Positions 1 through 26,247 of a stretch of 44,636 bases of DNA are shown piece by piece. The stretch is from NCBI GenBank assembly GCA_902765855.1, contig CACXBF010000017.1:1-44636 (forward strand), in the 5' to 3' direction. Below the pieces are notes generated by a model, which worked only from the letters and a program-made list of their open reading frames with translations, was not told where the DNA came from and searched no databases. Positions within the stretch are counted from its first letter, which is position 1; each line of letters begins with the position of its first letter. A program made the translations under genes and the position numbers. This stretch comes from an uncultured Ruminococcus sp. (GTDB lineage Bacteria; Bacillota; Clostridia; Oscillospirales; Acutalibacteraceae).

Positions 1-35
1 TATTCCTGGGTGTATTTCGGATTTTTTGAAGACAT
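1..35 (-). CDS. Start of a probable transposase OrfA (partial)
   Basis: Eleven codons are visible, reading MSSKNPKYTQE, with ATG at 35-33 and the Shine-Dalgarno (SD) site AAAGGAGG at about 41-48. The short basic N-terminus followed by YTQE resembles the beginning of IS3-family OrfA helix-turn-helix proteins, which typically start with a few basic residues and then Y(T/S)xEF. No domain can be seen in so little sequence, so the identity rests on resemblance and on the gene apparently interrupting its neighbour. Confidence 0.35.
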   Translation of the reverse strand, partial: MSSKNPKYTQE

Positions 36-100
36 TTTTATTCCTCCTTTTTCTGTCTTCTATTTTATCATACTTGTCCACTTTTTTATTATATATCCAA
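1..100 (-). mobile_element. End of an IS3-like insertion sequence (partial)
   Basis: On the minus strand, positions 35 down to 1 open a reading frame behind a perfect AAAGGAGG site. Upstream is a compact promoter and a GTGGACAAG motif (about 70-80), a sequence often found in the end region of IS3-family elements. The rest lies left of the window. The outer end cannot be fixed exactly but must lie between about 75 and 110, where the plus-strand gene regains natural protein sequence. The IS assignment is an inference from layout and 11 residues only. Confidence 0.4.
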
Positions 101-801
101 ATGAAAAACTGAACGGTAGCACTGTTAGTGAGGTAGATAAGCTAAAAATTAATGCTCGAATTAAAAAAGTCGAGAGCAAAAGGGATATGCTCATAGCAAG
201 AATAAATAATCTTAACGAGCTTGAACAGGAGCTTAATAAACTTACTAAGATAGAGCTTGTCGATGATAAGATAGACGAGCTTAGAAATACCGCAGTAGAA
301 ACAGCCGAAAAAGCAGCTATGAATGGCAGCAGCGTATCCGAAACTATTGATAATGTAGCTGAAACTTCAAGCGAGGTTATTAAGGAAGTTTTAGAACCTA
401 ACAAAATTAAGGAATCTGAAAATGATATGACAGAAGAACAGAATAAGCAAACTTATAAACAGGAAGAAAATAAACAAGCAGAAGCTGAAACGCAAACTTC
501 AGAAAAAGAAGAAAAAGCTGAAGATAAGCAACAAACTAATTTTGCTGACCAAGAACAAAAAACTGAGGATAAACCTCAAGAGAAAAAAACTCAAGCAAAT
601 AGCAATAATTTTTTGAAGAAAACCGGCTTAACACAAAAGCAGTTATTAGCAATCTTAAATACCGGCATAGCGATAAAGGTAGCTGAAACTATTCCAGACA
701 AGGAATACACGATAGCTTTTACTAAAGAAAATAAAGAAAAGATAAACCAAGTGCTTGAAGCTGTAAATACTCAAGTTCAAGGCAAGCATATGATGAGGTG
801 A
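10..801 (+). CDS. 5'-truncated conjugative-element protein with C-terminal shared module
   Basis: The frame is open from the left edge, but codons 1 to about 30 are translated insertion-sequence DNA, so the native start is lost. The native part begins near position 100. It contains a coiled-coil-like helical stretch (about residues 40-90), a long Glu/Lys/Gln-rich low-complexity linker (about 135-200) and a compact C-terminal module of about 45 residues (about 205-250) with the pattern L..tGI.....d...I.F.......I..vL. The same module ends the LRR protein next door and the ToxN protein at 25.5 kb. The gene ends 5 bp before the LRR gene and stands upstream of virD4. That is where PcfB/DUF3801 proteins sit in Tn1549-like elements, so an accessory transfer role is possible but unproven. 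No ATG occurs before residue 60. Confidence 0.6.
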   Translation: MYFGFFEDIFIPPFSVFYFIILVHFFIIYPNEKLNGSTVSEVDKLKINARIKKVESKRDMLIARINNLNELEQELNKLTKIELVDDKIDELRNTAVETAEKAAMNGSSVSETIDNVAETSSEVIKEVLEPNKIKESENDMTEEQNKQTYKQEENKQAEAETQTSEKEEKAEDKQQTNFADQEQKTEDKPQEKKTQANSNNFLKKTGLTQKQLLAILNTGIAIKVAETIPDKEYTIAFTKENKEKINQVLEAVNTQVQGKHMMR

Positions 802-805
802 TTTT

Positions 806-1660
806 GTGGATAGTTTAATTATTAAAGACAATACGGTTATAGCTTGTTCTGAAACTGATATTTTAAGTCTTAAAATCCCTGAAGGCGTTACCGCAATAAG
901 CGATAACGCTTTTTTTAATTTCAAAAGATTATCCGAGATACAATTACCAAGCTCACTTAAAAAAATCGGTGACAGAGCATTTGAAGGCTGTGAATCTTTG
1001 AAACTTATAAACATTGAAAATGTAAGTATGATTGGTGTCAGAGCGTTTGCAGGCTGTAAATCATTATCTAAAATACATTTTGGGGATAATATAGGATATC
1101 TTTGTAATGCAACATTTTGTGGCTGTACAGCTATTGAGGAAATAGATATTCCTAAAAATATATCCTACATCGGTTGTGAATGCTTTAAAGATTGTACTGG
1201 TCTTACTGATATAAAGCTTGCAGGTGTTATGGAGATTGACAACGGTGCTTTTGAGCATTGCACAGAACTATATAGTATAGCTTTTCCGTATTCACTACTA
1301 CATATTGCACCAAATGCTTTTTCTTTTTGCACAAAACTGCAATCAGTTATAATGCAAAACAGATTTATTGATATTGATGAAACTGCATTTGAATACAATG
1401 TCAATTTGATTATTAAAGCTGCTCAATTTTCAACAGCATATCATTATGCCATTGGAAATGGTTTTACATTTACACCAACGATAATTTCTGCCGATTATCG
1501 CATAGTGACAAATGAAGATGTAGCTATATTAAGTAAAGCAGGAATACTTTTTAGAATGAAAGTTATTGATAGTAGCACTGTTATAATTTCTTTTGATAAG
1601 TCGGCAAAGAGTAAAATCGAAAACTTGATAGGTTCTGACAAACATAACAGAGGTGAATAA
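806..1660 (+). CDS. BspA-type leucine-rich-repeat protein, cytosolic, with C-terminal shared module
   Basis: This 284-residue protein starts at GTG with a GAGGTG SD 5-6 bp upstream. Residues about 20-195 form about seven LRR_5 (BspA/Treponema pallidum type) repeats, seen as recurring I.d.AF.gC..L..I.lP units (GDRAFEGCESL, GVRAFAGCKSL). No signal peptide or membrane segment is visible, so it should stay in the cytoplasm, unlike most BspA-type proteins. After a linker, residues about 230-276 form the same C-terminal module as in the upstream truncated gene and the ToxN protein. It sits between two transfer genes and overlaps or abuts virD4, so it is probably co-transcribed. A protein-binding role is inferred from the repeat type; the partner is unknown. 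Confidence 0.8.
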   Translation: MDSLIIKDNTVIACSETDILSLKIPEGVTAISDNAFFNFKRLSEIQLPSSLKKIGDRAFEGCESLKLINIENVSMIGVRAFAGCKSLSKIHFGDNIGYLCNATFCGCTAIEEIDIPKNISYIGCECFKDCTGLTDIKLAGVMEIDNGAFEHCTELYSIAFPYSLLHIAPNAFSFCTKLQSVIMQNRFIDIDETAFEYNVNLIIKAAQFSTAYHYAIGNGFTFTPTIISADYRIVTNEDVAILSKAGILFRMKVIDSSTVIISFDKSAKSKIENLIGSDKHNRGE

Positions 1661-1661
1661 T

Positions 1662-3677
1662 TTGGAGAGTAAAAATAAACTTCGTGCGGAAAAAAGCAAA
1701 GCACCTATTATATATACTGGTATAGTTTTAGGTCTATTCTTTGTTCTTTTTATGATTTATGGTACATATAACTATATGCAATATACTGCTCGAATGAACT
1801 TAGACGAGCTAAGTATGCAACAGTTTATAGATTCTCTAAATGACCTTTTTAAATCATTTTATCTTCCATTTTCGTGGGAATTATTATGGACAATACTTGA
1901 ATGGCAGGTAACAAAGCTGTGGTGGGTATACCTTTGCGTTGTATTAGTTGTATTTATTATGGCTACATCAAATAACAGAGATGATTTCAAAGGTATGGAA
2001 CATGGCTCAACAAGATGGGCGAATAAATATGAAAAAAAGCGATTTACAGATAATACAGGTATTCCTTGTGGTGATAACTTCTACATAACCGTTTTTAATG
2101 TCAAAGGTGCGTTTTATTCAAGTCATAATCTGAATGAGATAGTCATTGGTGGTTCTGGTGCTGGTAAATCATTCCGTAAAATCAAGCCTGACATTATGCA
2201 AATGACAGGCTCATATGTTGTCACTGACCCATCGGGAGAGTTATACAGAGATTGTGCAAAACTATTAAAAGCAAATGGTTATAAAGTGCGTGTTTTTAAT
2301 CTTAATGACATTACCCTGTCAAACACATATAATCCGTTTAACTATATGGTTACTGATACAGACGCTATAAATGTTGCGGATTTATTTATTAAAAACACTG
2401 CTGGAGAGGGGGAAAAAGATGATTTCTGGTCCGCATCAGCAAAAGAAATGCTGTTTATGATTATGCTGTATCTCTTTAAAGCTCCTGATGAAACAAAGTC
2501 ATTTAGCAGAATTGTAAAATTGCTTACATCACTTCAATTCAAAAATGGAGCAATAGACGAAAACTGTGAAATTGCTAAGTGTATAAAAAGACATCAGCAA
2601 AGGGAAGGTACTATTGATGATGCAGTATCAATCTACTGGAATTCAATTAAGGGTACACCGGAAGAAACATTAGGAAGTATAACAAAAACGCTTTCAACAA
2701 GACTTAGCTTGTGGGCTATAAAAGAAGTAGATATGCTAACATCTACTGATGAAATGGATTTTGACGATATTGGAGTACATAAAACTGCAATATTTTTGAT
2801 TATTCCTGCAGCTCGTCAAACATACAAGGCTTTAGCAAATATCTTCTATACACAGCTTTTTGAGCGTTTAATGTATATTGCGAGCTTAAAATATAACAAT
2901 AGATTGCCTTTGTTAGTTTCCTGTGAACTTGACGAATTTGCCAATATCGGCAGAATACCAAATTTCTCAGAAACATTAGCGGTTGTTCGTAAGTATAACA
3001 TCAGACTTTGTATAGTTCTCCAGGGCTTGTCACAGCTTAAGGCTATATACGAAAAGACCTGGGAAAGTATTATTGGTAACTGCTCAATATTTACCTTTCT
3101 CGGCACAAATGATACAGACAGCATGGAATATGTATCTAAAAAGCTTGGTAAAACAACAGTAAGAGTCGACAGTCGAAGCTATAACAGAGGCAATCAGGGC
3201 GGTGGTTCTGATAGCGAAAGTTATATAGCTCGTGAACTTTTAGCACCTGATGAAATACCAAAAGCACTAAAACGAGGAAGGAATGGCAAATGTATTATAT
3301 TTGTTGATGAATTTTATCCTTTCTTTATTGATAAATTTGATACATTACAGCACCCGAAAATATCAGAGGTTGGCAGTGACAGAGGAGAATCTCAAAAGAA
3401 TAACTCCGATATTACTGTTGATTTTGCTGAAATTAAGTCTAATAGAGAAAAGTGTTATGTCGAAAGACAGCAAAAGGCTCAGCAAATATTAAGAGCAATT
3501 ATGTCAGATGATTATGAGGAAGATATTGCATTTAAGAAAAGTCAAGAGAAATTTACTAAAGAAAAGCTTAGACGGATTTTCGATAGTAATAATAACGAGC
3601 TTGTGACATTTAATGGTGATGATATTAAGGCTGATAATTATATTAACCTTAATGAGGTTAAGGAGGATGAGCAATGA
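1662..3677 (+). CDS. virD4: VirD4/TraG-type conjugal coupling protein
   Basis: This type IV coupling ATPase links the relaxosome to the secretion channel at the membrane. Two N-terminal transmembrane segments (about 15-40 and 85-105) are followed by the family signature HGSTRWA, Walker A GGSGAGKS (about 162-169), the VTDPSGELY motif and Walker B LLVSCELDEFAN (about 418-430). The length of about 671 residues is usual. TTG at 1662 is preferred because AGAGGTG lies 6 bp upstream. GTG at 1653 is within that site and would leave no room. The gene overlaps the upstream LRR gene's SD region and shares ATGA with the next gene, indicating translational coupling in a transfer operon. Confidence 0.93.
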   Translation: MESKNKLRAEKSKAPIIYTGIVLGLFFVLFMIYGTYNYMQYTARMNLDELSMQQFIDSLNDLFKSFYLPFSWELLWTILEWQVTKLWWVYLCVVLVVFIMATSNNRDDFKGMEHGSTRWANKYEKKRFTDNTGIPCGDNFYITVFNVKGAFYSSHNLNEIVIGGSGAGKSFRKIKPDIMQMTGSYVVTDPSGELYRDCAKLLKANGYKVRVFNLNDITLSNTYNPFNYMVTDTDAINVADLFIKNTAGEGEKDDFWSASAKEMLFMIMLYLFKAPDETKSFSRIVKLLTSLQFKNGAIDENCEIAKCIKRHQQREGTIDDAVSIYWNSIKGTPEETLGSITKTLSTRLSLWAIKEVDMLTSTDEMDFDDIGVHKTAIFLIIPAARQTYKALANIFYTQLFERLMYIASLKYNNRLPLLVSCELDEFANIGRIPNFSETLAVVRKYNIRLCIVLQGLSQLKAIYEKTWESIIGNCSIFTFLGTNDTDSMEYVSKKLGKTTVRVDSRSYNRGNQGGGSDSESYIARELLAPDEIPKALKRGRNGKCIIFVDEFYPFFIDKFDTLQHPKISEVGSDRGESQKNNSDITVDFAEIKSNREKCYVERQQKAQQILRAIMSDDYEEDIAFKKSQEKFTKEKLRRIFDSNNNELVTFNGDDIKADNYINLNEVKEDEQ

Positions 3678-5104: not shown

Positions 5105-8002
5105 ATGTCACCTTTATCAACTTCGTCAAAATATCGACAGACAATAAATAAAAAGCTTATTCGACTTATTGCTATTGTTCTGATGATTATGACTATACTA
5201 TCATCTATAGGTGCTTTGCAAAGTAATGCAGCAGCAAATTTTAATATAAGTAATTCTACCTTATCGACAACAGATGTTGCCGCAGATGGTAAGATTGTAA
5301 TGAATATTAAGGTTAATGGTACAGGTACAGTTAATCAATATGCTTACTGGTATCGTAAGGAAAGCGAATCTGCATGGTATGCTCTTACTTCATCTAACTG
5401 GGTATCATCAAATAACTTTATTATGTATCCGAGCAGATATTCAAGGATTATGTCTGATACTAATTCCCGATGGATTATTCGATTAGCTGCCAAAGATACA
5501 ACCGGAGCTGAATCTTCAAAAACATTCTATGTAACAGTTGGTCAACCTAAAATTACTATTGATACTTTTACTGCTCCTGATTTAACTTTAGGACAAAGCA
5601 TAAATCTTAAAACTACTTTGTCAGATACAGTAAGTGGATTTTCATATCGGTATAAGTATACATATGTTGATAAATCAGGTACAGAACGCTTAATTACAGA
5701 TTTTCAGAATAATGCAAATTATACTTGGTCTACTGCTAATAATGGTACTTTGCCTGAGAATGCTAATTGTACACTAAAGGTTTATGTCAAAGAAAATAAC
5801 GGCTATGCCAAACAAGCTACAAAAACTACGACTATTAAGATTACTAAGCCAACTTATCCTGATGTCAATATATCATCGTTTAGTGCTTCAAAAAGTGGTT
5901 ATGTTGGTGATTCGGTTACTCTCAAGGCTTCTGTTTCAAGCGGAACAGCACCTTATGAGTATCAATACAGCTATGATGATGCTAAAGGTATAAAACATAT
6001 AATTACAGCTTATACAGCTGGTAAAACCTCAACAACTTGGAATACCTCTTCCCTATCTGCCGGCGATTATACGATAAGGGTTGAGGTCAGGGATAAAAAC
6101 AAAAAAACTGCAACAAAAACAAGTACAATAAGCCTGAAATCAAGAAGCGTTAAAGGCTCAATATCAACTATGGAAATGAGCTACACGCAAAATGACGAAT
6201 GGTATCCGAATGTAAGATTTCAGGTTAATATAAGTGATGAAACCACTGCCCCCTCACCGTATAAGTACAAAGTTCAGTATAAAAAAAGCAGTGATAAGAA
6301 TTATACTAATTTAAGTGATTTCAAGACTTATAGCGGTAGTACCCAGATAGAGCTTCTCCCTACCTCGAAAGATATTGGCACATATAATTATCGCCTTATT
6401 GTTCGTGATAAAAATAATAAGGAATATACAATAAATGCTTCATCAACCTTTGAGATTAAATATAACGCACTAAAATTTAATTTTAATGCGTCTACAAAAG
6501 AATTTCTTACAGGTGGTGGCGACCAAAAGTCGACACTTACAGTTTCTGATGTTAAAGGCGGAAACGGCAAGGATATACAGTATAAATTTGAGTATACGAA
6601 ATACGCAGACTTAACAACAGCTTCTCCAAAACTTGATAGCAACGCAACTTGGACAACTCTCAAGGACTGGTCAGAAGAAAGTACATCAGAACTTATCGTT
6701 GATAAGCAGGAGGACGCAGGCTATTATGCTGTGAGAGTATCTGTTCAGAATAAGGATAATACAGATAGCTCTAAAATATCGACTAAAACCATTGATAAAA
6801 TAAAAGTAAAAAAGCCTGTCGAAGTTGCTCTTACTGATATAAACAATCTTATTACAAAAATAGATACTTGGATGAGTAATAGTCTTACCGATACACAATT
6901 TACTACTATAAAAGAGTGGGAAAATTTTAATAATGGTGCTAATCTACAAATATACGACTATCATTTCAGCGAGTTTCAGGTTGCGTATGATACCGCTAAA
7001 GATGCTGCTAATCACGATAAAAGCGAATACTCTAAGATATATAAGAATCTTGATGATGAATTCACTAAGCTAAAAACATTCTTTAAAAGTAATGAGTTCA
7101 GAAGTTATTCTCCAGATGGTGGTGAAAACACAGACTGGTCATCACCTATGGCAATCTGCAATTTCATATTTGATACATTTGTAAACTATCTTGTAATGGT
7201 AATAGATTGTTTCAGTATGTTAGCAGGTAATGGTAAAACCTCTGTTACTTTCTTTTCCGGATTTGATTATAACCAAATTGCTCAGGTAATATATCCTGTA
7301 TTTCAAGCTATTGCCTATGCCTTAATAGTTATACTTGTTGGAGTTAATGCTATAGAATCAGCCTTTCAATACGAAATGTTCACACTCAGAGGTGGATTCA
7401 AAATTGCTGTTAGACTAATATTTGCAAAGGTTTTTGTAGATTTATCTCTTACAATATGTCAATCTATTATATCTATTGGTGTGGGCTGGACAAATCAAAT
7501 TTTGGAATTAACAAAGGGAATATTGAATAATTTACAATTAACTCTTACGGGTCCAGATGCTTCTGGATTATGGATAGTTGGTTGGATTGTTGATTTCTTT
7601 ACAGGACTGCTCTTTGTTATAATTATCGGTCCGGTTGCGATTGCTTTAGCGATTGCAGCTTTTTGCTTAATGTGTAAATTATTTATTCGTTGTTTTGAGA
7701 TTGCAATGCTCCAATGTGTATCCCCTGCTTTCTTTGCTTGCATTTGTGGAGAAGCAACTAAAGAATATTTCAAGAGATTCATGATTTCATACTTATCTGT
7801 TGTACTTGATGTTGTGTTTACAGCTGTTGTTTTCTATATTTATGCACAATATTTAAATGGTTTCATTACTGATATAAGTATAACAAAACCAGATGATATA
7901 TTGAATACTCAAATGGGATTTTTCTCTTTTATATTTGTTTCAATCGGTGCATTCATACTTATGATAAAAACCCCAAGAGTTCTCAAAAATTTAGTAGCAT
8001 AG
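5105..8002 (+). CDS. VirB6/TrbL-like membrane protein with large Ig-like ectodomain
   Basis: This 965-residue protein has an N-terminal signal or anchor segment (about 15-40). It then has about 600 extracellular residues made of repeated beta-sandwich units rich in Tyr and Thr/Ser. These are built on Y.Y.Y-type strands (PYEYQYSY, FSYRYKYTY, PYKYKVQY), resembling triple-tyrosine/Ig-like domains. From about residue 680 there are six or so transmembrane helices with a hydrophobic pattern typical of VirB6/TrbL channel components. ATG at 5105 has GAAAGGAG 6 bp upstream; the out-of-frame ATG at 5101 is too close. Fusion of cell-surface adhesin-like repeats to a mating-channel subunit suggests contact with the recipient or wall, which is an inference. 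Its neighbours are the pilin gene and a lipoprotein gene. Confidence 0.8.
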   Translation: MSPLSTSSKYRQTINKKLIRLIAIVLMIMTILSSIGALQSNAAANFNISNSTLSTTDVAADGKIVMNIKVNGTGTVNQYAYWYRKESESAWYALTSSNWVSSNNFIMYPSRYSRIMSDTNSRWIIRLAAKDTTGAESSKTFYVTVGQPKITIDTFTAPDLTLGQSINLKTTLSDTVSGFSYRYKYTYVDKSGTERLITDFQNNANYTWSTANNGTLPENANCTLKVYVKENNGYAKQATKTTTIKITKPTYPDVNISSFSASKSGYVGDSVTLKASVSSGTAPYEYQYSYDDAKGIKHIITAYTAGKTSTTWNTSSLSAGDYTIRVEVRDKNKKTATKTSTISLKSRSVKGSISTMEMSYTQNDEWYPNVRFQVNISDETTAPSPYKYKVQYKKSSDKNYTNLSDFKTYSGSTQIELLPTSKDIGTYNYRLIVRDKNNKEYTINASSTFEIKYNALKFNFNASTKEFLTGGGDQKSTLTVSDVKGGNGKDIQYKFEYTKYADLTTASPKLDSNATWTTLKDWSEESTSELIVDKQEDAGYYAVRVSVQNKDNTDSSKISTKTIDKIKVKKPVEVALTDINNLITKIDTWMSNSLTDTQFTTIKEWENFNNGANLQIYDYHFSEFQVAYDTAKDAANHDKSEYSKIYKNLDDEFTKLKTFFKSNEFRSYSPDGGENTDWSSPMAICNFIFDTFVNYLVMVIDCFSMLAGNGKTSVTFFSGFDYNQIAQVIYPVFQAIAYALIVILVGVNAIESAFQYEMFTLRGGFKIAVRLIFAKVFVDLSLTICQSIISIGVGWTNQILELTKGILNNLQLTLTGPDASGLWIVGWIVDFFTGLLFVIIIGPVAIALAIAAFCLMCKLFIRCFEIAMLQCVSPAFFACICGEATKEYFKRFMISYLSVVLDVVFTAVVFYIYAQYLNGFITDISITKPDDILNTQMGFFSFIFVSIGAFILMIKTPRVLKNLVA

Positions 8003-8004
8003 TA

Positions 8005-8033
8005 TTGAAATAAAAATCACTTTATGGTATTAT
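8005..8033 (+). promoter_or_regulatory. Promoter for the LRR lipoprotein gene
   Basis: TTGAAA, a 17-bp spacer, then TATTAT, 31 bp before the gene's ATG. Confidence 0.6.
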
Positions 8034-8064
8034 AATAATCATAGTATTTGAAAGGATTGATTAT

Positions 8065-8829
8065 ATGAAAAACAAAGTGAAAATAACTACTTTAATATTA
8101 GCTTTGATGGTATCTATGGTAAGTATAGTTGGTTGTTCTAATAACAATTCAACAAGCACAGAAGCAAATGTATCAAGCAACTCTTCAATAGAATCGTCTG
8201 CAGAAAGTTCTATAGAAGAATCCTCTACCCTTGAATCATCTGCTGAAATATCATCTGAAACAACAAGTACAGCAGAAAGCAGTATAAGTAGCAGTAGTAA
8301 TAGTTCTGCTGTTGACCCTGCTGTTGAAGAACGCTCATATAGCAAAGAGGAAACATACAAGCCACAACCAACTAAGTTTTCTGATTACAGTTATTATCCG
8401 GCAGGAAATAGTTATTGCTACTCAGGTAGTGCCAGCAAAGTGATAATCCCATCGGAATTTACCGAGTGTCCGGGATTTAACTATGATAATGATGTAAAAG
8501 AAATTATTGTTCCTGAAACAGTAACTAAAATACCAAAGGGAGCTTTTACAGGCTGTACAAACCTTGAAAAACTTGTAATCTTAAATCCTGACTGTGAGAT
8601 TGAAGACGGCAGAATCCTTCCGAAAGCAGACCCTAATGCCAAGTATAATTCATATAACAATAAACTTATTAATATTTACTGTTATTTTAGGTCTGATAAA
8701 ACTATTCCTAAACAACGCTTAGTTGGTATACAGGGTTGCAGTAAGGTATTCAATGCTCTTGGCGGCAGCTATACAGGCAAGGACTTTGATAAGTGCATGC
8801 ACGACTTAGCAGAGGAATCATACGAATAA
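8065..8829 (+). CDS. Secreted lipoprotein with Ser/Glu linker and BspA-like repeat domain
   Basis: This 254-residue protein has a clear lipobox signal peptide (hydrophobic core then SIVGCSNN, lipidated Cys near residue 24). A Ser/Glu/Thr-rich low-complexity linker (about 30-95) probably spans the cell wall. The C-terminal domain carries one to two LRR_5-type units (IIVPETVTKIPKGAFTGC) in a region with many aromatic residues and two to four cysteines. It has its own promoter and terminator, so it is expressed separately from the transfer operon. A surface recognition role is plausible from the BspA repeat type; the ligand is unknown. The element thus encodes one cytosolic and one surface LRR protein. 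Confidence 0.78.
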   Translation: MKNKVKITTLILALMVSMVSIVGCSNNNSTSTEANVSSNSSIESSAESSIEESSTLESSAEISSETTSTAESSISSSSNSSAVDPAVEERSYSKEETYKPQPTKFSDYSYYPAGNSYCYSGSASKVIIPSEFTECPGFNYDNDVKEIIVPETVTKIPKGAFTGCTNLEKLVILNPDCEIEDGRILPKADPNAKYNSYNNKLINIYCYFRSDKTIPKQRLVGIQGCSKVFNALGGSYTGKDFDKCMHDLAEESYE

Positions 8830-8839
8830 AGCCAAAAAT

Positions 8840-8868
8840 AAAAGCACAGCTCAAGCTGTGCTTTTATT
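8840..8868 (+). terminator. Terminator of the lipoprotein gene
   Basis: AAAAGCACAGC/GCTGTGCTTTT stem (8840-8850, 8855-8865) with a 4-nt loop. The same GCACAGC...GCTGTGC hairpin recurs at 9262, 9652 and 10237. Confidence 0.88.
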
Positions 8869-8883
8869 ATGCCCGTCAGAAGA

Positions 8884-8912
8884 TTGACGGAATATGTAGA
8901 TTTTGGTATAAT
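8884..8912 (+). promoter_or_regulatory. Forward promoter of peptide module 1
   Basis: TTGACG, a 17-bp spacer and TATAAT; transcription should begin near 8919. A GAAA-capped hairpin (CACAC 8920-8924, GTGTG 8929-8933) would sit at the very 5' end of the RNA, as in stable type I toxin mRNAs. Confidence 0.85.
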
Positions 8913-8941
8913 GTACTCGCACACGAAAGTGTGTACATAGT

Positions 8942-9040
8942 GCATACCACATAACGGTAGGCGGTTGTTCCCTTAACCTCTTTGAGGTGCAGGGATACAT
9001 AAAATTTTCTTTTATCCCTGCTTTCTTAGTGAAAGGAGGG
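8942..9040 (+). promoter_or_regulatory. Structured leader controlling peptide 1 translation
   Basis: GCATACC (8942-8948) and GCGGTTGTTCCC (8961-8972) are complementary to GGTATGC (9200-9206) and GGGAACAACCGC (9183-9194) beyond the gene. Further on, AGGGATA (8991-8997) and the SD-overlapping AGGGATA (9037-9043) can compete for the single TATCCCT (9013-9019). The ribosome site could therefore be masked or freed by alternative pairing. The pairing is read directly from the sequence; the regulatory effect is inferred. Confidence 0.6.
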
Positions 9041-9045
9041 ATACG

Positions 9046-9138
9046 ATGATGGAATGGAATGATTTCTTCCAGATGATTATTGCAGTTACAAATATACTGC
9101 TTGTCATAAATTCATATCGCAACAATAAAAGAAGATAA
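9046..9138 (+). CDS. Small hydrophobic peptide, holin-like type I toxin candidate 1
   Basis: A 30-residue peptide: MMEWNDFFQ, then a single hydrophobic helix (MIIAVTNILLVI), then a basic tail RNNKRR. This is the layout of Hol_Tox/Fst/TxpA-type type I toxins: a short N-terminus with W-x-D-F-F, one membrane helix and a Lys/Arg C-terminus. GGAGG lies 6 bp before the first ATG and 9 bp before the second (9049), so either may be used. The gene is flanked by a forward promoter and a convergent antisense promoter. Membrane toxicity is inferred from the family and organisation, not shown. Confidence 0.75.
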   Translation: MMEWNDFFQMIIAVTNILLVINSYRNNKRR

Positions 9139-9211
9139 CCGCCCTGCTTCCACATAGGACGGTTATCTTTTAACCAACTACTGGGAACAACCGCTTATCG
9201 GTATGCTCTAT
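9127..9211 (-). ncRNA. Putative antisense RNA of module 1
   Basis: The predicted leftward transcript of about 85 nt runs from the promoter at 9218-9246 to the shared terminator. It overlaps the end of the peptide mRNA. Its 5' end repeats the GCATACC...GCGGTTGTTCCC elements of the toxin leader in the same sense, so the pairing scheme resembles fold-back-regulated type I systems more than simple full-length antisense. Confidence 0.6.
9134..9171. terminator. Bidirectional terminator of module 1
   Basis: GATAACC...GGTTATC with an extended imperfect stem across the peptide stop codon. It is followed by TTTT on the plus strand and by TTCTTTTA on the minus strand, so both convergent RNAs can end here and share complementary 3' stems. 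Confidence 0.8.
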
Positions 9212-9217
9212 GTTTAT

Positions 9218-9246
9218 ATTATACACTACATATTAAAATATGTCAA
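9218..9246 (-). promoter_or_regulatory. Reverse promoter of module 1
   Basis: On the minus strand, a perfect TTGACA, 17-bp spacer and TATAAT. It drives the antisense RNA leftward. Confidence 0.87.
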
Positions 9247-9261
9247 ACATATCATTAAACT

Positions 9262-9283
9262 GCACAGCTTTGGCTGTGCTTTT
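9262..9283 (+). terminator. Distal terminator of module 1
   Basis: GCACAGC/GCTGTGC with a 4-nt loop and TTTT. A forward RNA reaching this point would include both halves of the long-range inverted repeat. Confidence 0.8.
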
Positions 9284-10280: not shown

Positions 10281-10595
10281 ATGATAAAAGTAAAAATCAC
10301 AAAGAATGTCATTAACAAAAGTGTAAGCCCTCTTGGAAGTGCATTAACTCCACGATTGATTGTATGCACTGTACTTGGCTTAGCTGCTGCTATTGCAACA
10401 TTCTTTGCGTTAAAAGACAGTATAGAGTTCAATGCACTTATGTGGATAGTCTTTGCAGAAATAGCACTATTTGTTTCTTTAGGAATACAGATAAACGGAG
10501 TAGGTGTATTAAATCTTTTATTCGGCAAACAAAAAGACACACGACCATTTAATAGAAAAGGAGTATTTAACGATGATGATGAATCTATTTTTTAA
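10281..10595 (+). CDS. prgI: PrgI-family protein (VirB3-like T4SS component)
   Basis: A 104-residue protein. ATG at 10281 follows AAAAGGAGG by 5-6 bp; the frame's upstream codons lie in the terminator. The basic start MIKVKITKNV, then SPLGSALTPRLIV and two adjacent transmembrane helices (about 29-48 and 53-75), match PrgI proteins. These are VirB3-like membrane partners of VirB4 in Gram-positive conjugation systems. The gene overlaps virB4 by 23 bp, the usual PrgI-VirB4 pairing. Confidence 0.8.
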   Translation: MIKVKITKNVINKSVSPLGSALTPRLIVCTVLGLAAAIATFFALKDSIEFNALMWIVFAEIALFVSLGIQINGVGVLNLLFGKQKDTRPFNRKGVFNDDDESIF

Positions 10596-12978
10596 GATAT
10601 TTTCGGTGTTTTCTAAAAAGCCAAGTGATTTTTTGGGGAAGAGAAAGGCAAGGGTACCAAAGACTGCTCAAGATACTATACCATTCATAGAAGCATATGA
10701 AAACGGGCTTTTCCTTACTGGTGAAAACACATATACGCTGATTTTTGCATATAACAACATAGATTACTTTCTTTTTAGAGATGATGAAAAGGAAGATATA
10801 TACGAAAAGTATATGCGTTTGCTCAATGCTTTGCCGTCAGATATAGAGTATCAGGAATTTACGATGAATACCGAGGTTGATTCTGATGTTCTTTATAGAA
10901 CACTCTTGCCGAATAAAGATTCGGAAGAAAAATATCCTGATATTGCAAAGGACTATAAGAAAGTCATAGGAAGCTATATTGAAAATACTTCCGTTGCTGC
11001 GGCTAAGAAAATTATGCTTATTGCAATGACCTATACACCTCAAAACAAGATAGATAACGCAAATATCCTTTTTAAGTATTATCAAAATTTACAGCAGCTA
11101 TTTACAAATCTTCATTCAGAAACGCACCAACTTGGGGCTGAGGATGTGTTTGAGGTTCTATATAAGCTGTACCACCAATTCAGCAATATCCCGTTTATGC
11201 TCCCTAAAAATGTCTTATCGACAGGTGGCAGAATTAAGGATTATATTGCTCCGTCAATATTCGTATTCAGACAGAAGTGCATTGAAATAGGTGATTCTTA
11301 TACTCGTGTACTGTTCTTAAAAAGCTATGACCGTAATATAGATGATGAATTTATTCACGACTTACACGATAATAATGAAAAAATAGTAATATCTAAACAT
11401 TTACGCAGGGTAGACAAAGGTGAAGCTGCAGATATGGTTAAAAAGAATTTAAATAACCTTGAGGGCAGCATACAAAAGCGTATGGAGATAAACCATAAAA
11501 ACGGAACTAATTATGTGCCAAAAACATTAAGCAACAAAGAAAAAGAGCTGCTTGACCTACAAGACCGTCTTAGCGGAACAGGCTGTGAGCTTTTTGAATT
11601 ATCAATTTTCGTAGCTGTTACTGCAAAAACAGAGGAAGAATTAAATGAGCTTACCCGTTATGTGCAGAATAAGGCTAAGTCACATCAAGTGGTGCTCGAC
11701 ACTCTCACAGGACAGCAAGCTAAAGCTCTTGATGCTGTTACACCATTTGCATTAAGTAAATTTAACTCAAAGTTTAATAATAACATAAAAACATATCTCC
11801 TTAGCGATGCCGCCGGAGTTATGATACCGTTCTCTCATGTTGACCATTTTGCAGAGGGCGGTATTTTTTATGGAGAAAATCAAATAACAAAGTCAATTAT
11901 AACTCTTGATAGAACTCAAGAAATGAATGCCAATGGTTATATACTTGGCTGTTCGGGTTCGGGTAAGTCTATGTTCTCAAAGGCTGAAATGTTTGATGTT
12001 TTGCTAAAATATCCAAATGATGAGATTATTGTTATTGACCCAGAAAATGAATATAAACTACTTGTTAAGTACTTTGATGGTTCAATTCTTAAACTTTCCC
12101 CGTCATCACCAACAAAACTAAATATTTTTGATATAGATTTGACGGTATCCGAGGAAGGTACATCAGCAATAGCAATGAAGTCAGAAACAATTATGACTAT
12201 CGTTGAAACAGCAAAGGGTCAGGAACTTACAAGTAACGAGATAACAATTATCGACCGCTGTGTAAAACTTGCTTATCAAAAGTATATTCAGACAAATGGA
12301 GATGAGCGACTTCTTCCAACCTTTGAGGATTTTTATAAACTTCTATTATCTGCACCAGAGCCTGAAGCACGCTCACTTGCTGTTACACTTGAGATTTATG
12401 TTAAAGGTTCATTCAATATCTTTTCCGGCAAAACAAATATTGATACAAATAAGCGTTTTATGGTATTTGATATTGCCCAAATGGGTGAACAAATTCGTGC
12501 TGTAGGCTTACAAGTTATACTTGAATATGTATGGCAGAGAGTTGTTGCAAACAAAAGGCGTGGGGTTCGTACTTGGGTATGGATTGATGAATTTAGTATT
12601 ATGTTTAATGACGGTGCAGGACGAACAACACATAAATCAGGAGAATTTTTTTCAAAGGTCTATAAGCGTATCAGAAAATACGGCGGCGTTCCAACTGCTA
12701 TGACGCAAAATATAACAGAAGTTCTTGAATCACCTCAAGCTCGAACAATGCTTGCTAACTCGGAATTTGTCACATTGCTTCAACAGAAAAAAGAAGATTT
12801 GGACGCCGTTTCAAAGTTATTTGCTCTATCTCCATATCAACAGCTGCCATTGAAATCCGGCAAAGTAGGTACAGGTATCATTGTTTGCGGTAAAAAGATT
12901 ATTCCGTTCGAAAAGATAATTCCAGAGGATAGCTTGATGTACAAAATATGCACAACAAAATTCGATGATATTCGATAG
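10573..12978 (+). CDS. virB4: VirB4/TraE-type conjugal ATPase
   Basis: This 801-residue ATPase powers T4SS assembly and substrate transfer at the membrane. It starts in a run of three ATG codons with AAAAGGAG about 10 bp before the first. Residues about 20-440 are the VirB4 N-terminal domain. Walker A GCSGSGKS is at about 458-465, then IVIDPENEY. Walker B TWVWIDEFS is at about 665-673, followed by the MTQNITEVLESPQ motif typical of VirB4. Full length, no lesions. It directly follows prgI and is 10 bp before the next gene, so it is in the same transcript. Confidence 0.95.
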   Translation: MMMNLFFKIFSVFSKKPSDFLGKRKARVPKTAQDTIPFIEAYENGLFLTGENTYTLIFAYNNIDYFLFRDDEKEDIYEKYMRLLNALPSDIEYQEFTMNTEVDSDVLYRTLLPNKDSEEKYPDIAKDYKKVIGSYIENTSVAAAKKIMLIAMTYTPQNKIDNANILFKYYQNLQQLFTNLHSETHQLGAEDVFEVLYKLYHQFSNIPFMLPKNVLSTGGRIKDYIAPSIFVFRQKCIEIGDSYTRVLFLKSYDRNIDDEFIHDLHDNNEKIVISKHLRRVDKGEAADMVKKNLNNLEGSIQKRMEINHKNGTNYVPKTLSNKEKELLDLQDRLSGTGCELFELSIFVAVTAKTEEELNELTRYVQNKAKSHQVVLDTLTGQQAKALDAVTPFALSKFNSKFNNNIKTYLLSDAAGVMIPFSHVDHFAEGGIFYGENQITKSIITLDRTQEMNANGYILGCSGSGKSMFSKAEMFDVLLKYPNDEIIVIDPENEYKLLVKYFDGSILKLSPSSPTKLNIFDIDLTVSEEGTSAIAMKSETIMTIVETAKGQELTSNEITIIDRCVKLAYQKYIQTNGDERLLPTFEDFYKLLLSAPEPEARSLAVTLEIYVKGSFNIFSGKTNIDTNKRFMVFDIAQMGEQIRAVGLQVILEYVWQRVVANKRRGVRTWVWIDEFSIMFNDGAGRTTHKSGEFFSKVYKRIRKYGGVPTAMTQNITEVLESPQARTMLANSEFVTLLQQKKEDLDAVSKLFALSPYQQLPLKSGKVGTGIIVCGKKIIPFEKIIPEDSLMYKICTTKFDDIR

Positions 12979-15375: not shown

Positions 15376-15727
15376 TAAATCTGATGGTTGGTATCAAGAA
15401 CTGCATGAGCTTGTTCTTTGGATTATAAATACTAAAAATTTTAGTGAGTTTATCGAATCTAAAATTTATCTTCTTAAATCTGAAATAAAAGATAACTTAG
15501 ATAAACATATTCAAGAATATAAAACAAATCCAAAAACTTCAAGTAAATGTTTAAGTAAATCAATTAATGATGAAAAAAAAGCATTAACATTTGATAGAAT
15601 ATGTAGATTAGTTTTAGCGGATATATGTGGTGTATCTAACGAAAATCAGGAAACATTAATGAACAAAAAGCTTTCTATCAAGCAAATGGATAAATTACTA
15701 TTTGACTATATAAATAACTTAAATTAA
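15368..15727 (+). CDS. Unknown helical protein coupled to the preceding gene
   Basis: A 119-residue protein with ATG inside the end of the preceding gene. Helical, Lys/Asp-rich and soluble, with no recognised motif. A bidirectional terminator follows and separates it from the convergent RelBE pair. The coupled two-gene layout (174 and 119 residues) resembles a small accessory operon; no function can be read from it. Confidence 0.58.
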   Translation: MINKSDGWYQELHELVLWIINTKNFSEFIESKIYLLKSEIKDNLDKHIQEYKTNPKTSSKCLSKSINDEKKALTFDRICRLVLADICGVSNENQETLMNKKLSIKQMDKLLFDYINNLN

Positions 15728-15755
15728 TCTAAATTACACATTTTCAAATATTAAG

Positions 15756-15789
15756 AATAAAGGTTCTCTTAAAACAGAGAACCTTTATT
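15756..15789. terminator. Bidirectional terminator between convergent operons
   Basis: A 14-bp perfect stem AATAAAGGTTCTCT/AGAGAACCTTTATT with a 6-nt loop and flanking T/A runs on both strands. Confidence 0.85.
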
Positions 15790-15796
15790 TATCCAT

Positions 15797-16063
15797 TTAA
15801 CTATATACATCTCGACGATGACCAATATTTAGTGCTGTTATGATAAGCCTATCATCTTCAATGAGGCATATAAGCCTATAATCACCTATTCTGTATCTCC
15901 ATTGCCCTTTTCTGTTTGCAACTAAAGCTTTGCCATGAATTCGTGGATTTTCACAATCAATAAGATTTTTAGTAATCCATGATTTAATCATCAGTTGAGT
16001 ATATCTATCAAGTTTTTTAAATTCTTTATCAAACCTTGAGGTTGTTTCAACTGAATATTTCAT
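15797..16063 (-). CDS. relE: RelE/StbE-family mRNA interferase toxin
   Basis: An 88-residue toxin that cleaves ribosome-bound mRNA in its family. It has the RelE fold signature: F.kefkkLd...Q..I..wI..nL...nPr, then the G.W.RYRIGDYRLIC core with conserved Arg, and a C-terminal NIGHRRDVY, the usual catalytic and RNA-binding tail. The start overlaps the antitoxin stop by 4 bp, standard for type II toxin-antitoxin pairs. No lesion is seen, so it is probably active. Confidence 0.92.
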   Translation of the reverse strand: MKYSVETTSRFDKEFKKLDRYTQLMIKSWITKNLIDCENPRIHGKALVANRKGQWRYRIGDYRLICLIEDDRLIITALNIGHRRDVYS

Positions 16064-16281
16064 AAATCAAGGTCCTTCCACAATTTTTCAATAGGTGTAC
16101 TTTTTTTGCCCTCTTTCAAATATTCATCATATGCTTCATTGGCAATAGCAATATCATATTCATCTTCGATTTTTTCAAATAAAGCCTTTTTAAAGGCTTC
16201 ACCAATGGATATAGAGTGTAGTTTGGCATAGCTGTCAGCTAATTTTCTTTCTTCATCTGTTAATCTAATTGAAAATGCCAT
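16060..16281 (-). CDS. relB: RelB-like antitoxin (ribbon-helix-helix, DUF6290-type)
   Basis: A 73-residue protein. MAFSIRLTDEERKLADSYAKLHSISIGEAFKKAL is the ribbon-helix-helix DNA-binding part; the acidic C-terminus (YDEYLKEGKKSTPIEKLWKDLDL) is the toxin-wrapping tail. ATG follows AAGGAGATG by about 6 bp. It precedes and overlaps the toxin gene and has a palindromic operator over its promoter, consistent with autoregulation. Confidence 0.9.
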   Translation of the reverse strand: MAFSIRLTDEERKLADSYAKLHSISIGEAFKKALFEKIEDEYDIAIANEAYDEYLKEGKKSTPIEKLWKDLDL

Positions 16282-16297
16282 AAAATCATCTCCTTTA

Positions 16298-16334
16298 TAT
16301 AGTACATAGTACTATATAATTCTTATTTTGTCAA
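16298..16334 (-). promoter_or_regulatory. relBE promoter with palindromic operator
   Basis: Minus-strand TTGACA (16334-16329), 17-bp spacer, TACTAT (16311-16306). The -10 lies inside the palindrome TATAGTAC-ATA-GTACTATA (16298-16316), a likely RelB operator that would block polymerase. Confidence 0.78.
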
Positions 16335-16383
16335 TAGTTTTATCTTATGTAGATATAAAATTTTTATAATAAGGAGGAATACA

Positions 16384-16980
16384 ATGAAAATCTTAACTTT
16401 TTCTGATTTACATACACCTTGCATTGAAGCTATATCCAATATTGATTTTAATAATCTCAATTATGATATATGCTTCACACTTGGAGATATAGATTTTGAA
16501 ACATTGAAAACTATACGAAATAATGTAAAATGCAGTATTTATGCGGTTCTCGGCAATCACGATGAATATAATCTCTTATCTGATTTAAATATTCAAAGTA
16601 TCAACAGAAAAAAGATTAATGTTGCTGGCATTTCTTTTGTAGGCTTATCTGGCTCATCAAGATATAAACTTGATAATAAATCTATGCTTACCCAAAAAGA
16701 AAGCATACAAGTTTGTAAAGAACTTGAACCAGCAGATATACTTATTTCTCACGATTGTGCGTTTGGTTTATATGGTTCAAAATCAGATAATACTCATTGT
16801 GGTTTGAAAGGTATATCGAAGTATATAAAAAAGTACAAGCCTTGGCTTAATATTCATGGACACTATCATCAAAATAAGATTATAAAGTGTCGTAACACAA
16901 CGGATATTTGCATTTATGGTTGTGCTATTATTACTCTTAACACTAACCTCAATTTTGAGATTAAGCATATTTTTAGTTAA
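16384..16980 (+). CDS. Calcineurin-like metallophosphoesterase
   Basis: A 198-residue protein with the dimetal phosphoesterase motifs in order: SDLH (D8, H10), LGD (G34-D35), GNHD (57-60), SHD (about 125) and GHYH (about 160). The length fits the small MPP_YfcE-like class. ATG follows AAGGAGGAAT by about 6 bp. The substrate is unknown; such genes are frequent cargo in Clostridia conjugative elements. It lies alone between the RelBE promoter and the next promoter. Confidence 0.85.
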   Translation: MKILTFSDLHTPCIEAISNIDFNNLNYDICFTLGDIDFETLKTIRNNVKCSIYAVLGNHDEYNLLSDLNIQSINRKKINVAGISFVGLSGSSRYKLDNKSMLTQKESIQVCKELEPADILISHDCAFGLYGSKSDNTHCGLKGISKYIKKYKPWLNIHGHYHQNKIIKCRNTTDICIYGCAIITLNTNLNFEIKHIFS

Positions 16981-20461: not shown

Positions 20462-20492
20462 AAGAATGTGTTTAAATGCACATTCTTTTTTT
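20462..20492 (+). terminator. Terminator after topB
   Basis: AAGAATGTG/CACATTCTT with an 8-nt loop and a T7 run, 27 bp after the topB stop. Confidence 0.85.
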
Positions 20493-20522
20493 ATGCTCAA
20501 AATTAGGAAAGGAAGATATATT

Positions 20523-21449
20523 ATGAATGAAAAATTCACACCAGAACAGCTTGAAAAAGCTTATAACGCTGATATAATTGAATTTTTGCAAATGTATAAG
20601 GGATACGATTTTGTGAAGAAAGGTAATTATTATCAGTGCAAACAACACGATAGCCTTATGGTATATGGTAATAGAAAAGGATTTGTTTGGAATAGTCAAA
20701 AAATTGGCGGTGGAGGTGCTATTGATTTTCTATGTAGAGTTGATGGATTAAGCTTTCCAAAAGCTGTTGAAGCAATTATAGGCGAACGAGCTGCAGAATA
20801 CAGGGCGGCTCCTAAATATGAACCAATGGCTCATATAGGAAAATTAGTTTTGCCTGAACGAGCTGAGGGAAAATACAGCAGAGTTTTTGCATATCTATCT
20901 CAAACAAGAGGTATAACTCCAGAAGTTGTTGCCGATTTTATGAAATCTAAGCAGCTCTATCAGGATAAAAAAGGAAATTGTGTATTTGTAGGGTATGATG
21001 AAAAAGGTGTTGCTAAGTTTGCTTCTGTTCGAGGTACTCTGACCGAAAAGAAATATCGTGGTGACTGTAAAAATTCTGACAAAAGATATGCTTTTCAGCA
21101 GGTTGGAACAGATACAACAAAATTATACATATTTGAAGCACCTATCGACCTTATGAGTCACTGTGCATTAACGGATAAACAATTTGGTACTGGTACATAT
21201 AAACAGCAAACAAGAATTGCTCTTTGTGGTACATCTGATGTGGCTTTGGAAGCTTTTCTTGCAAAACACCCAGAAGTCAAAACATTAAATTTCAGATTGG
21301 ATAATGATGAAGCCGGAAAAAAAGCTGTAAAGGACTATAAAGCTAAATATGAAAAAATGGGATATATTGTTAAGGCTGTATTCAGTAATGGCAAAGATAT
21401 AAACGAAGATTTAATTAAACAGAATAAATCAGCAAAAAGAGTGAGATAG
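20523..21449 (+). CDS. DUF3991/toprim primase-like protein
   Basis: A 308-residue protein. The N-terminal part (Y..C..HDSL...KGFVWNSQKIGGGGAIDFLCRVDGLSF.KAV) matches the CHC2-like/DUF3991 region of mobile-element primases, with only a partial zinc set. The C-terminal toprim fold has the catalytic Glu in LYIFEAPIDLMS (about 202) and RLDNDEAG (about 258). Likely primes or processes element DNA during transfer. ATG at 20523 is behind AAAGGAAG; the longer frame start at 20466 runs through the terminator and is rejected. Follows topB, its usual neighbour. Confidence 0.85.
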   Translation: MNEKFTPEQLEKAYNADIIEFLQMYKGYDFVKKGNYYQCKQHDSLMVYGNRKGFVWNSQKIGGGGAIDFLCRVDGLSFPKAVEAIIGERAAEYRAAPKYEPMAHIGKLVLPERAEGKYSRVFAYLSQTRGITPEVVADFMKSKQLYQDKKGNCVFVGYDEKGVAKFASVRGTLTEKKYRGDCKNSDKRYAFQQVGTDTTKLYIFEAPIDLMSHCALTDKQFGTGTYKQQTRIALCGTSDVALEAFLAKHPEVKTLNFRLDNDEAGKKAVKDYKAKYEKMGYIVKAVFSNGKDINEDLIKQNKSAKRVR

Positions 21450-24508: not shown

Positions 24509-24548
24509 GAGCATAACCGTTATCAGTACGATTACGCTCTATTTTTTT
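24509..24548 (+). terminator. Imperfect hairpin with T7
   Basis: AGAGC.TAA/TTACGCTCT arms followed by a T-rich run. It resembles the CCGnTTATCGGTATGCTCTAT right end of the peptide modules at 9.2 and 9.6 kb, perhaps a relic of another copy. Confidence 0.5.
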
Positions 24549-24579
24549 AATATTGCAACTATTACGGAGGAAAACAAAA

Positions 24580-25212: not shown

Positions 25213-25236
25213 GTGGGACTTGAAGTCCCACTTATT
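25208..25236 (+). terminator. Terminator of the recombinase gene
   Basis: 13-bp perfect stem AATAAGTGGGACT/AGTCCCACTTATT with a TGA loop; weak T run. A near-copy with compensating changes lies at 27529. Confidence 0.75.
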
Positions 25237-25262
25237 CTATAATTTAGAATTTTAAAAAATAG

Positions 25263-25294
25263 TTGACATATTTTCAAGAATAATGTAATATAAT
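25263..25294 (+). promoter_or_regulatory. Promoter of the ToxI RNA
   Basis: TTGACA (25263-25268) with TAATAT at a 17-bp spacing, overlapped by a TATAAT at a 20-bp spacing. It lies just upstream of the repeats and of no other gene. Confidence 0.75.
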
Positions 25295-25319
25295 ATTAAT
25301 GATGTTCGATTACTCATCT

Positions 25320-25441
25320 TATCGTTGAGTGTTTCGCCACTTGTAAAAGAGCGAGTGTTTTTATCGTTGAGTGTTTCGCCACTTGTAAAAGAGCGAATGT
25401 TTTTATCGTTGAGTGTTTCGCCACTTGTAAAAGAGCGAGTG
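25320..25441 (+). ncRNA. toxI: ToxI-type RNA antitoxin, three 42-nt tandem repeats
   Basis: Three head-to-tail units start at 25320, 25362 and 25404. Units 1 and 2 differ by a single base (GAGTG/GAATG), and unit 3 lacks only the final TTTT. Each starts TATCGTTGAGTG and carries short self-complementary stretches (GAGTG...CACTT). In type III systems such repeats are cut by the toxin into monomers that fold as pseudoknots and inhibit it. A promoter precedes, a terminator follows, and a ToxN homologue comes next: the exact ToxIN layout. The repeats are contiguous without spacers, so this is not a CRISPR array. Confidence 0.92.
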
Positions 25442-25454
25442 CAAAAGTAATCAA

Positions 25455-25480
25455 AAGCGGGTATTGTTACCCGCTTTTTT
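25455..25480 (+). terminator. Terminator between toxI and toxN
   Basis: AAGCGGGTA/TACCCGCTT stem, TTGT loop, T6. In ToxIN loci this attenuator sets the excess of antitoxin RNA over toxin mRNA; read-through makes toxN. Confidence 0.92.
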
Positions 25481-25506
25481 AATTTAGAAAATTGAGGTTA
25501 TATAAA

Positions 25507-26247
25507 ATGAAAATTGCATTTTATAATGTTGATTTAGATTATATTGATTATTTAAAAAAGTTTGAATCTGCTCATCGTGGTTTTACCAGAGTTCCAAACG
25601 TTCAATATCGAAGTGGAAACAATAAGTTTTTCTATGGAACTGTTTTAAATATCCAAGGGATTGATTACTTTGTGCCTATATCATCTAAACAACACAATAG
25701 AGAAGATGATATTCAAATAAAACCAAAAAATGATAAGTATTGTAAAGAATATGCTACTTTGAGATTTGCATATATGCTTCCAATTCCTCACCAATGTATA
25801 ACGATGCTTAATATTTCTGAAATTTCTAATAATACACAAAAAGAAAGAGTAAGAAAAGAATTAGCTTATTGTAGAAAATTTAAAGATAAAATAGAAAAAC
25901 AAGCAAAAAAAACCTATCATCGTATAGTAGACAAAGTTAATGATAAGTTAGTTCATAATAGCTGCGATTTCAAATTGCTTGAGCAAGCTTACATAAAATA
26001 CTGCATAGATAATGGATTAGAACTCTCCAAGGATTTACAAACACAGGAAACTCTATTTCAAAAAGAAGAAGTTTATCAGCAGATAAACTCAAACCAAATT
26101 AACGATTTAGCCAATAGTGGAATTCCATTTAAGGCTAAGAAAATATCTGATGATAGCTTTATCATTGTATTTGATGAAAAATATAGCGATAGAGTTAATC
26201 AGATACTTAACCAAAATACTCGTGGAAATTTAAAACACAAGATATAA
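25507..26247 (+). CDS. toxN: ToxN/AbiQ-family type III toxin endoribonuclease with C-terminal extension
   Basis: A 246-residue protein; ATG at 25507 with TTGAGG upstream. Residues 1 to about 172 match ToxN/AbiQ: MKIAFYNVDLDYIDYLKKFE, then FYGTVLNIQGIDYFVPISSK (the conserved GxVLxIxGxxYxxPxSSxK core with probable catalytic Ser-Ser-Lys). The family's ELAYCRKFKDKIEKQA helix and the conserved CDFKLLEQAY end of the fold follow. Known members stop near 170 residues. Here about 70 more follow, of which residues about 196-236 are a module also found at the C-termini of the LRR protein (806-1660) and the truncated gene (10-801). The family cleaves RNA and mediates phage abortive infection or plasmid maintenance. 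Confidence 0.9.
   Translation: MKIAFYNVDLDYIDYLKKFESAHRGFTRVPNVQYRSGNNKFFYGTVLNIQGIDYFVPISSKQHNREDDIQIKPKNDKYCKEYATLRFAYMLPIPHQCITMLNISEISNNTQKERVRKELAYCRKFKDKIEKQAKKTYHRIVDKVNDKLVHNSCDFKLLEQAYIKYCIDNGLELSKDLQTQETLFQKEEVYQQINSNQINDLANSGIPFKAKKISDDSFIIVFDEKYSDRVNQILNQNTRGNLKHKI

Follow-up and report, generated by a model that had tools for sequence, protein, structure and literature searches.

A C-terminal module shared by toxins and the relaxase of a Ruminococcus conjugative element, a candidate signal for type IV translocation

Why do a ToxN toxin, a leucine-rich repeat (LRR) protein and a coiled-coil protein, all encoded by one conjugative element of an uncultured Ruminococcus sp., end in the same short module, and what would such an ending be for? 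The element lies on a 44,636-nucleotide stretch of DNA (the window), which begins at base 1 of contig CACXBF010000017.1 (C17) in a draft genome of 2.39 Mb (GCA_902765855.1; G000 in our numbering) and which holds virD4, a VirB6-like gene, a VirB4-type ATPase gene, a topoisomerase, a DUF3991/Toprim protein, a resolvase and toxIN. We find that the module is a domain of ~48 residues that recurs on otherwise unrelated proteins, among them the relaxase. It is probably a signal for docking on the coupling protein and for type IV translocation, which toxins and establishment proteins would have borrowed from the relaxase.

A preliminary description of this DNA had proposed that the C-terminal module is common to ToxN (25492..26247; all window features are on the + strand), the LRR protein (806..1660) and the first gene of the window, P1 (10..801). 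Indeed, all three tails lie where it had placed them. Based on a profile hidden Markov model (HMM), the module spans 26080..26217 in ToxN (residues 200-245 of the open frame, E 3.3e-19), 1499..1636 in the LRR protein (residues 235-280) and 625..765 in P1 (residues 209-255, E 1.3e-15 with a model that contains P1's own row). The ToxN tail aligns with that of P1 with a score of 69 and with that of the LRR protein with a score of 62, and none of 5000 shuffles equalled either score; the P1-LRR pair scores 38, which 32 of 5000 shuffles reached, and taken alone this weak pair would suit a chance or low-complexity resemblance. When own-genome sequence was left out of the HMM (20 of 24 rows remained, rows themselves originally found via window-derived profiles), the three proteins were still recovered from the 392 open reading frames (ORFs) of the window, with E values of 1.4e-15 for ToxN, 1.2e-11 for the LRR protein and 3.1e-10 for P1, and 0.065 for the next best.

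The turning point came from a ToxN search of 60 relatives, because in one genome (G026) the tail alone matched, in two adjacent genes. On that contig four successive genes end in the module; their products are the terminal part of a helicase-like protein, two proteins that match nothing in Pfam, and SpoVG. In the own genome, a profile of the three tails clearly matched only the tails themselves, with two weak matches besides. A seven-row profile matched 8 of 300 genomes of the host's family at E ≤0.01, several of them with multiple copies (seven in G237, six each in G026 and G145, four in G000 and three in G124), and a 24-row profile, from which near-duplicate VapD, P1 and PezT copies were excluded, matched 16 of 398 family genomes at E ≤0.001. 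Ten of these, at E ≤1e-5, were counted as real. Among the weaker matches, that in G229 is a relaxase and that in G130 a possible relaxase fragment with no relaxase match; those in G204, G305, G245 and G024 were treated as noise or undecided. The preliminary description had considered that an HMM of the tails might retrieve nothing else at meaningful scores, and the profile finds far more than the three window proteins.

Strong matches among 394 genomes of the order were confined to the host's family, and strong matches among 391 genomes across the class were confined to the own genome (the family, order and class samples overlap). The noise level of the class-wide search is given by two other genomes, at 5e-4 and 8e-4, in which the matches are a pullulanase-type enzyme and an apparent aspartokinase ACT domain; outside the family, the order- and class-wide searches returned weak matches only, from 5e-4 to 8e-4, several of which resemble aspartokinase ACT domains. 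Scans of viral_contigs with ToxN, P1 and the VapD-like protein returned no relatives. The module is rare, often present in multiple copies where it occurs, and confined so far to the host's bacterial family.

The carriers of the module are otherwise unrelated, and four carrier types are toxin-like. ToxN and the LRR protein (LRR_5) were assigned by Pfam. The zeta toxin (Zeta_toxin) also resembles the NCBIfam PezT model, below its cut-off, and the VapD-like protein reaches 80.2 bits with NCBIfam, against a cut-off of 100. Other carriers are a PBECR4 nuclease, SpoVG, the P1 coiled-coil protein (no family), small proteins of 89-92 residues, a polyvalent methylase-helicase protein that is split across two contigs in G026, and the relaxase (PF03432). 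The polyvalent protein of the own genome (2785 residues; MuF_C, LPD25, SNF2, Eco57I) matches its G026 homologue up to the module and itself has no module. In another relative (G021, locus L057), three genes at 7126-9264, upstream of virD4, resemble the module at their ends by eye and not by HMM; the YodL protein encoded there and its neighbour were dropped as carriers, given E values of 5.4 and 0.11.

What kind of domain is the module? AlphaFold2 predicts for the ToxN tail (61 residues) a beta-alpha-beta-beta-alpha fold, with strands at 3-9, 24-27 and 32-38, helices at 10-19 and 39-54, and a mean predicted local distance difference test (pLDDT) of 84.9. A resemblance in outline to PcfB/DUF3801 had already been suggested, and it is upheld by profile comparison and predicted fold, both of which link the module to the C-terminal half of DUF3801 (PF12687), the family to which PcfB of pCF10 presumably belongs. 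The profile-profile score is 26.8, while the best of 200 column shuffles gave 15.0 and the reversed profile 10.0; the relaxase-tail profile, too, falls on this half of DUF3801 (E 6e-4). That half is predicted to contain strands at 63-69, 87-90 and 101-107 and helices at 70-83 and 108-121, helix 1 following strand 1 without a break; the confidence is moderate, with a mean pLDDT of 76.1 and every residue below 90. Thus the folds are not unrelated, as the preliminary description had allowed they might be: strands and helices follow in the same order in both, and the alignment is in register. By score the module falls outside the family, since the ToxN tail reaches 14.0 bits and the Pfam cut-off is 24.1 bits; four of 24 modules match DUF3801 in Pfam, the best at E 0.0015 and under the cut-off, and no other family is listed more than once. 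DUF3801 is also a free-standing protein with an additional N-terminal half, whereas the module forms the end of other proteins. A VirD4 homologue lies within 1.5 kb of the DUF3801 gene at 11 of 19 loci, while the stretches of DNA covered at the remaining eight contained no such homologue, and the module hints at the role of DUF3801 proteins. Judged by title, neither of the two papers found to name DUF3801 deals with its function, and PMC7117660 does not mention PcfB.

The module might instead be a domain of ACT/ferredoxin-like type, used for ligand sensing or for assembling its carriers into oligomers. Several of the weak genome matches look like aspartokinase ACT domains (our reading of the sequences), and ACT, PII and KH-like folds come up in a fold search, at E 0.03 or weaker, as this explanation would predict. 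We consider it unlikely, since the same search of the PDB with the module gave no match at E ≤0.001, and since a regulatory or dimerisation domain leaves unexplained the tandem copies in relaxases, the position near the stop codon and the basic end, which we describe below.

The relaxase assigned to the element lies outside the window, on contig C33. Counting matches of at least 8 bits to the 24-row model, whose rows take in the G026 copies, we found three module copies in the relaxases of G026 and G269, two in those of G021, G032 and G178, and one in those of G229, G124, G145 and G000 (contigs C33 and C11). To limit circularity, we built a profile from 21 rows of cargo proteins only, and compared it with eight relaxases excluding that of G026; the match has an E value of 7.9e-10, which is somewhat flattered because five of the eight relaxases were found with a cargo-containing profile, and none of 150 shuffles was as good. 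The alignment falls on the extreme C-terminus of the relaxase. As an HMM, the cargo-only profile finds three of nine relaxases at E ≤3.6e-5, and a relaxase-tail profile run against 245 genomes of the class found only the own genome, with two relaxases. The homology itself we regard as settled.

The module lies close to the stop codon. The last copy ends 3-18 residues before the stop codon in 27 of 28 carriers and 57 residues before it in the remaining one, in a count that includes near-duplicates and proteins used in building the model. The residues that follow tend to be basic: the net charge of the last eight residues averages +2.2 in 30 carriers (positive in 26), compared to +0.18 in 228 other ORFs, with kinship among the carriers ignored in the P value. 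In ToxN the module is followed by a nine-residue basic end (26218-26244) and P1 also has a basic end, while the LRR protein has none. Strongly basic ends also occur in Toprim-type proteins with no module (window 20466-21449; L056 13670-14701, the latter labelled Toprim from our reading of its sequence), and these proteins may be transferred too. Chance or low complexity as the origin of the likeness is, in our view, refuted by the cargo-relaxase profile match, and the profile searches, the recovery of the three tails with the own-genome-free HMM, the near-stop position and the class-wide search, with no strong foreign match, point the same way; we consider such an origin scarcely conceivable.

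The sharing with the relaxase, a point that the preliminary description had missed, suggests what the module might do. Docking of unrelated proteins onto one element-encoded partner, as had been proposed, is the best reading, and because the relaxase also carries the module, we infer the coupling protein as that partner and translocation as the purpose. The window encodes a VirD4/TraG-type coupling protein (1653..3677; Pfam T4SS-DNA_transf, E 4.6e-69, and TraG-D_C, E 3.9e-33), which is the presumed receptor. The module would be the recruitment domain by which one family of integrative conjugative elements serves its type IV secretion system (T4SS). The module probably originated at the C-terminus of the MobA/VirD2-type relaxase, in which we recognise one to three copies, and single copies would have been joined to the C-termini of proteins with a presumed use inside the recipient during or just after transfer, namely toxin-antitoxin (TA) type toxins (ToxN, zeta/PezT-like and VapD-like), the PBECR4 nuclease, SpoVG and the polyvalent methylase-helicase. 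Each copy would bind VirD4, or an adaptor on VirD4 such as DUF3801/PcfB may be, the basic end would complete the signal, and the tagged protein would enter the recipient together with the DNA. The ToxI RNA would stay in the donor or be lost in the recipient, and ToxN might for a short time affect the recipient or an infecting phage.

The genes around the carriers bear on this proposal, since the module is found mostly beside conjugation genes. Directly before virD4 lie P1, the LRR gene and, in relatives, a gene for a small protein (window, L046, L047); at L057 a module-bearing SpoVG gene takes this place. A VapD-like gene is 1.6 kb from a relaxase gene in G145 (L053), and a PBECR4 gene is 3.4 kb from one in G124 (L049). 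The arrangement would also be expected if the module acted in the donor only, gathering the relaxosome and helper proteins on the coupling protein or the membrane, with the toxins as guards or stability devices that stay behind: the LRR, P1 and small carriers adjoin virD4, the LRR protein has no clearly basic end, and DUF3801, the relative of the module, is encoded near virD4. Yet relaxases, the classical transferred substrate, carry the module, the end has a net positive charge in 26 of 30 carriers, and the swapping of toxin bodies behind a constant module resembles delivered toxins. Docking confined to the donor is a possible explanation, and a doubtful one.

Such swapping is seen in G237, in which three successive vapD-like genes (L048 2377-5040) have modules that are 98-100% identical in protein and DNA and bodies that are 53-64% identical. 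The small proteins encoded ahead of each of these genes share 90-100% of their first 42 residues and 36-45% of the remainder. A toxin and a partner that can both be swapped, with the delivery part kept constant, would give this pattern, and gene conversion could contribute to it. A second shared tail, different from the module, was seen by eye in three proteins in G032 (L128 9601-12488) and two in G178 (L131 11272-14047), encoded between the relaxase and virD4 genes in genomes whose relaxases carry the module; two of the five proteins are ArdC-type (ArdcN and Peptidase_M78, with one ArdcN match slightly under the cut-off). It may be common for proteins of these elements to have tails in common. 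For ArdC, transfer in conjugation has been reported (PMC5512222).

Several observations weigh against translocation as the purpose of the module. It is limited to one bacterial family among the genomes searched. Six of the nine relaxases score just 0.077 to 42 with the cargo-only HMM, and to this must be added the flattered E value and the composition of the 28-carrier count, both given above. The LRR copies have no clearly basic end (charges of the last eight residues of 0, 0, +1 and -2; three of these four are exceptions), the last eight residues of the G032 relaxase have a charge of 0, and in two genomes the PBECR4 protein continues beyond the module, for 45 and 57 residues, the former in a weak match (E 0.0029) additional to the 28 carriers. 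The identity of the G237 modules could stem from gene conversion alone. Modules are no more alike within genomes than between them (3296 of 5000 permutations were as high), and thus co-evolution with one receptor is not apparent. Finally, not every toxin is tagged, because both a ParE-type toxin in the same element and a second ToxN in the own genome lack a recognised module. The ParE-type toxin and its DUF6290 partner are encoded at 15797-16281 of the window, within the transfer region; the second ToxN homologue lies on contig C29 (L058:6325-7062), which also encodes a PBECR4 protein with the module (15512-16420).

The ToxN of the window has the features of the type III TA system ToxIN: a ToxN domain (Pfam ToxN_toxin, E 5.4e-32, residues 9-170), ToxI-like antitoxin RNA repeats upstream (25319..25441; 2.9 copies of 42 nt, by Tandem Repeats Finder) and a terminator-like site between them (25453-25478), with a promoter-like site at 25263-25291; an Rfam scan for ToxI gave no family above cut-off. 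It differs in a C-terminal extension of ~74 residues that holds the module. That known ToxN proteins end ahead of this region, as the preliminary description had stated, holds for the homologue matches: none of 89 matching plasmid records covers 80% of the query, the plasmid matches end at or before residue 194 (among the 20 matches listed), and both phage matches end by residue 164. In G032, a ToxN that is 49% identical has 175 residues and no module. The toxN of the related Pseudoruminococcus massiliensis (L002/G001), tried as a natural module-less toxin, was ruled out as its gene is truncated, and the module-less comparison therefore rests on G032 and on the plasmid and phage records. The truncated gene (L002 10001-10399) lies beside the remnant of a similar element and has fewer ToxI-like repeats upstream. 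Several carriers are TA-type toxins, as would be expected if the module bound an antitoxin or stabilised the toxin. We consider this very unlikely, given that a module-less ToxN homologue exists and that the relaxase, SpoVG, LRR and polyvalent enzyme carriers have no common antitoxin.

The first gene deserves separate comment, for it ties the window to the relaxase. P1 had been called truncated, and it is incomplete at the contig edge; it is not simply truncated, since its other half is at the end of C33 (13459-14061). The homologues in relatives (L046, L047, L050, L051) are intact proteins of 362-530 residues; the C33 piece matches residues 154-331 of a relative's protein and the window piece, the C-terminal half, residues 335-521. 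Bases 1-99 of the window repeat the last bases of contig C10 without a difference. With its other half at the end of C33, the P1 gene looks as if it is interrupted by a repeated, insertion-sequence-like element, or was left unresolved by the assembly. In either case the listed N-terminus of P1 is not native. Because each of C33 and C17 holds one half of P1, we took them as one element. The gene order on C33 is ssb-like, MobC-like, relaxase, polyvalent protein and the N-terminal half of P1 (ssb and MobC being our reading of the sequence). The element thereby has a relaxase on C33 and, in the window, both VirD4 and a VirB4-type ATPase (our name; 10573..12978, Pfam P-loop_TraG, E 2.6e-19), as well as a TrbL/VirB6-like channel protein (5105..8002; Pfam TrbL, E 6.5e-5, slightly under the cut-off) and the BspA-type LRR protein (LRR_5, E 4.6e-47).

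Searches of open-licence full-text papers returned no description of the module. According to a 2025 review (PMC12857230), relaxase-DNA complexes reach the channel via the coupling protein, with limited evidence from Gram-positive bacteria; it is surprising that nearly all known functions of Gram-positive T4SSs are restricted to DNA translocation, the sole exception described being the 89K system of Streptococcus suis; and effector translocation by these systems is a long-standing question that needs more attention. The module provides a portable 48-residue candidate signal, a named candidate receptor and a list of candidate effectors, and the question therefore becomes testable by reporter fusion. 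If the proposal is true, neighbouring cells receive protein from these bacteria in addition to DNA. We lean, by a little, towards the broader view that Gram-positive gut conjugative elements practise modular effector delivery, in which a relaxase-derived address domain, independent of the BID domain of Bartonella, is placed on exchangeable toxins, nucleases and establishment proteins that are injected with the DNA.

Two known systems invite comparison. Polyvalent proteins of conjugative elements have cargo domains that are predicted to be sent into recipients, and the likeness extends to the domains themselves (PBECR, ArdC-N, peptidase, methylase-helicase); PMC5512222, which describes them, suggests ArdC-N as a delivery header, and the words DUF3801, SpoVG, ToxN and secretion signal do not occur in its text. 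The closer parallel is BID, a helical bundle. According to PMC5675462 and PMC6509941, the BID signal is carried by relaxases of alpha-proteobacteria, by FIC, PezT and Zeta toxins and by Bartonella effectors, and VbhT, a toxin with BID, has been shown to pass into recipients when fused to Cre. As far as these accounts go, the architecture is the same: a C-terminal domain with a short positive end, common to a conjugative relaxase and TA toxins, with PezT/Zeta toxins among the carriers in both cases, both encoded in conjugative elements, and one or two copies in BID relaxases compared to one to three recognised copies here. They differ in size, fold and host, BID having ~100 residues and occurring in alpha-proteobacteria, while the module has ~48 residues, a predicted beta-alpha-beta-beta-alpha fold and a home in Bacillota, and Pfam lists 23 families for 24 modules, none of them BID. 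The cargoes of the module (ToxN, VapD-like, PBECR4, SpoVG and LRR proteins) are different as well, and translocation is demonstrated for BID, whereas for the module its architecture points to it. Because fold and sequence differ, the module is an analogue of BID, not a member. The comparison suggests that toxins have borrowed a domain from the relaxase twice, once in the case known from alpha-proteobacteria and again here, with a fold unrelated to the first.

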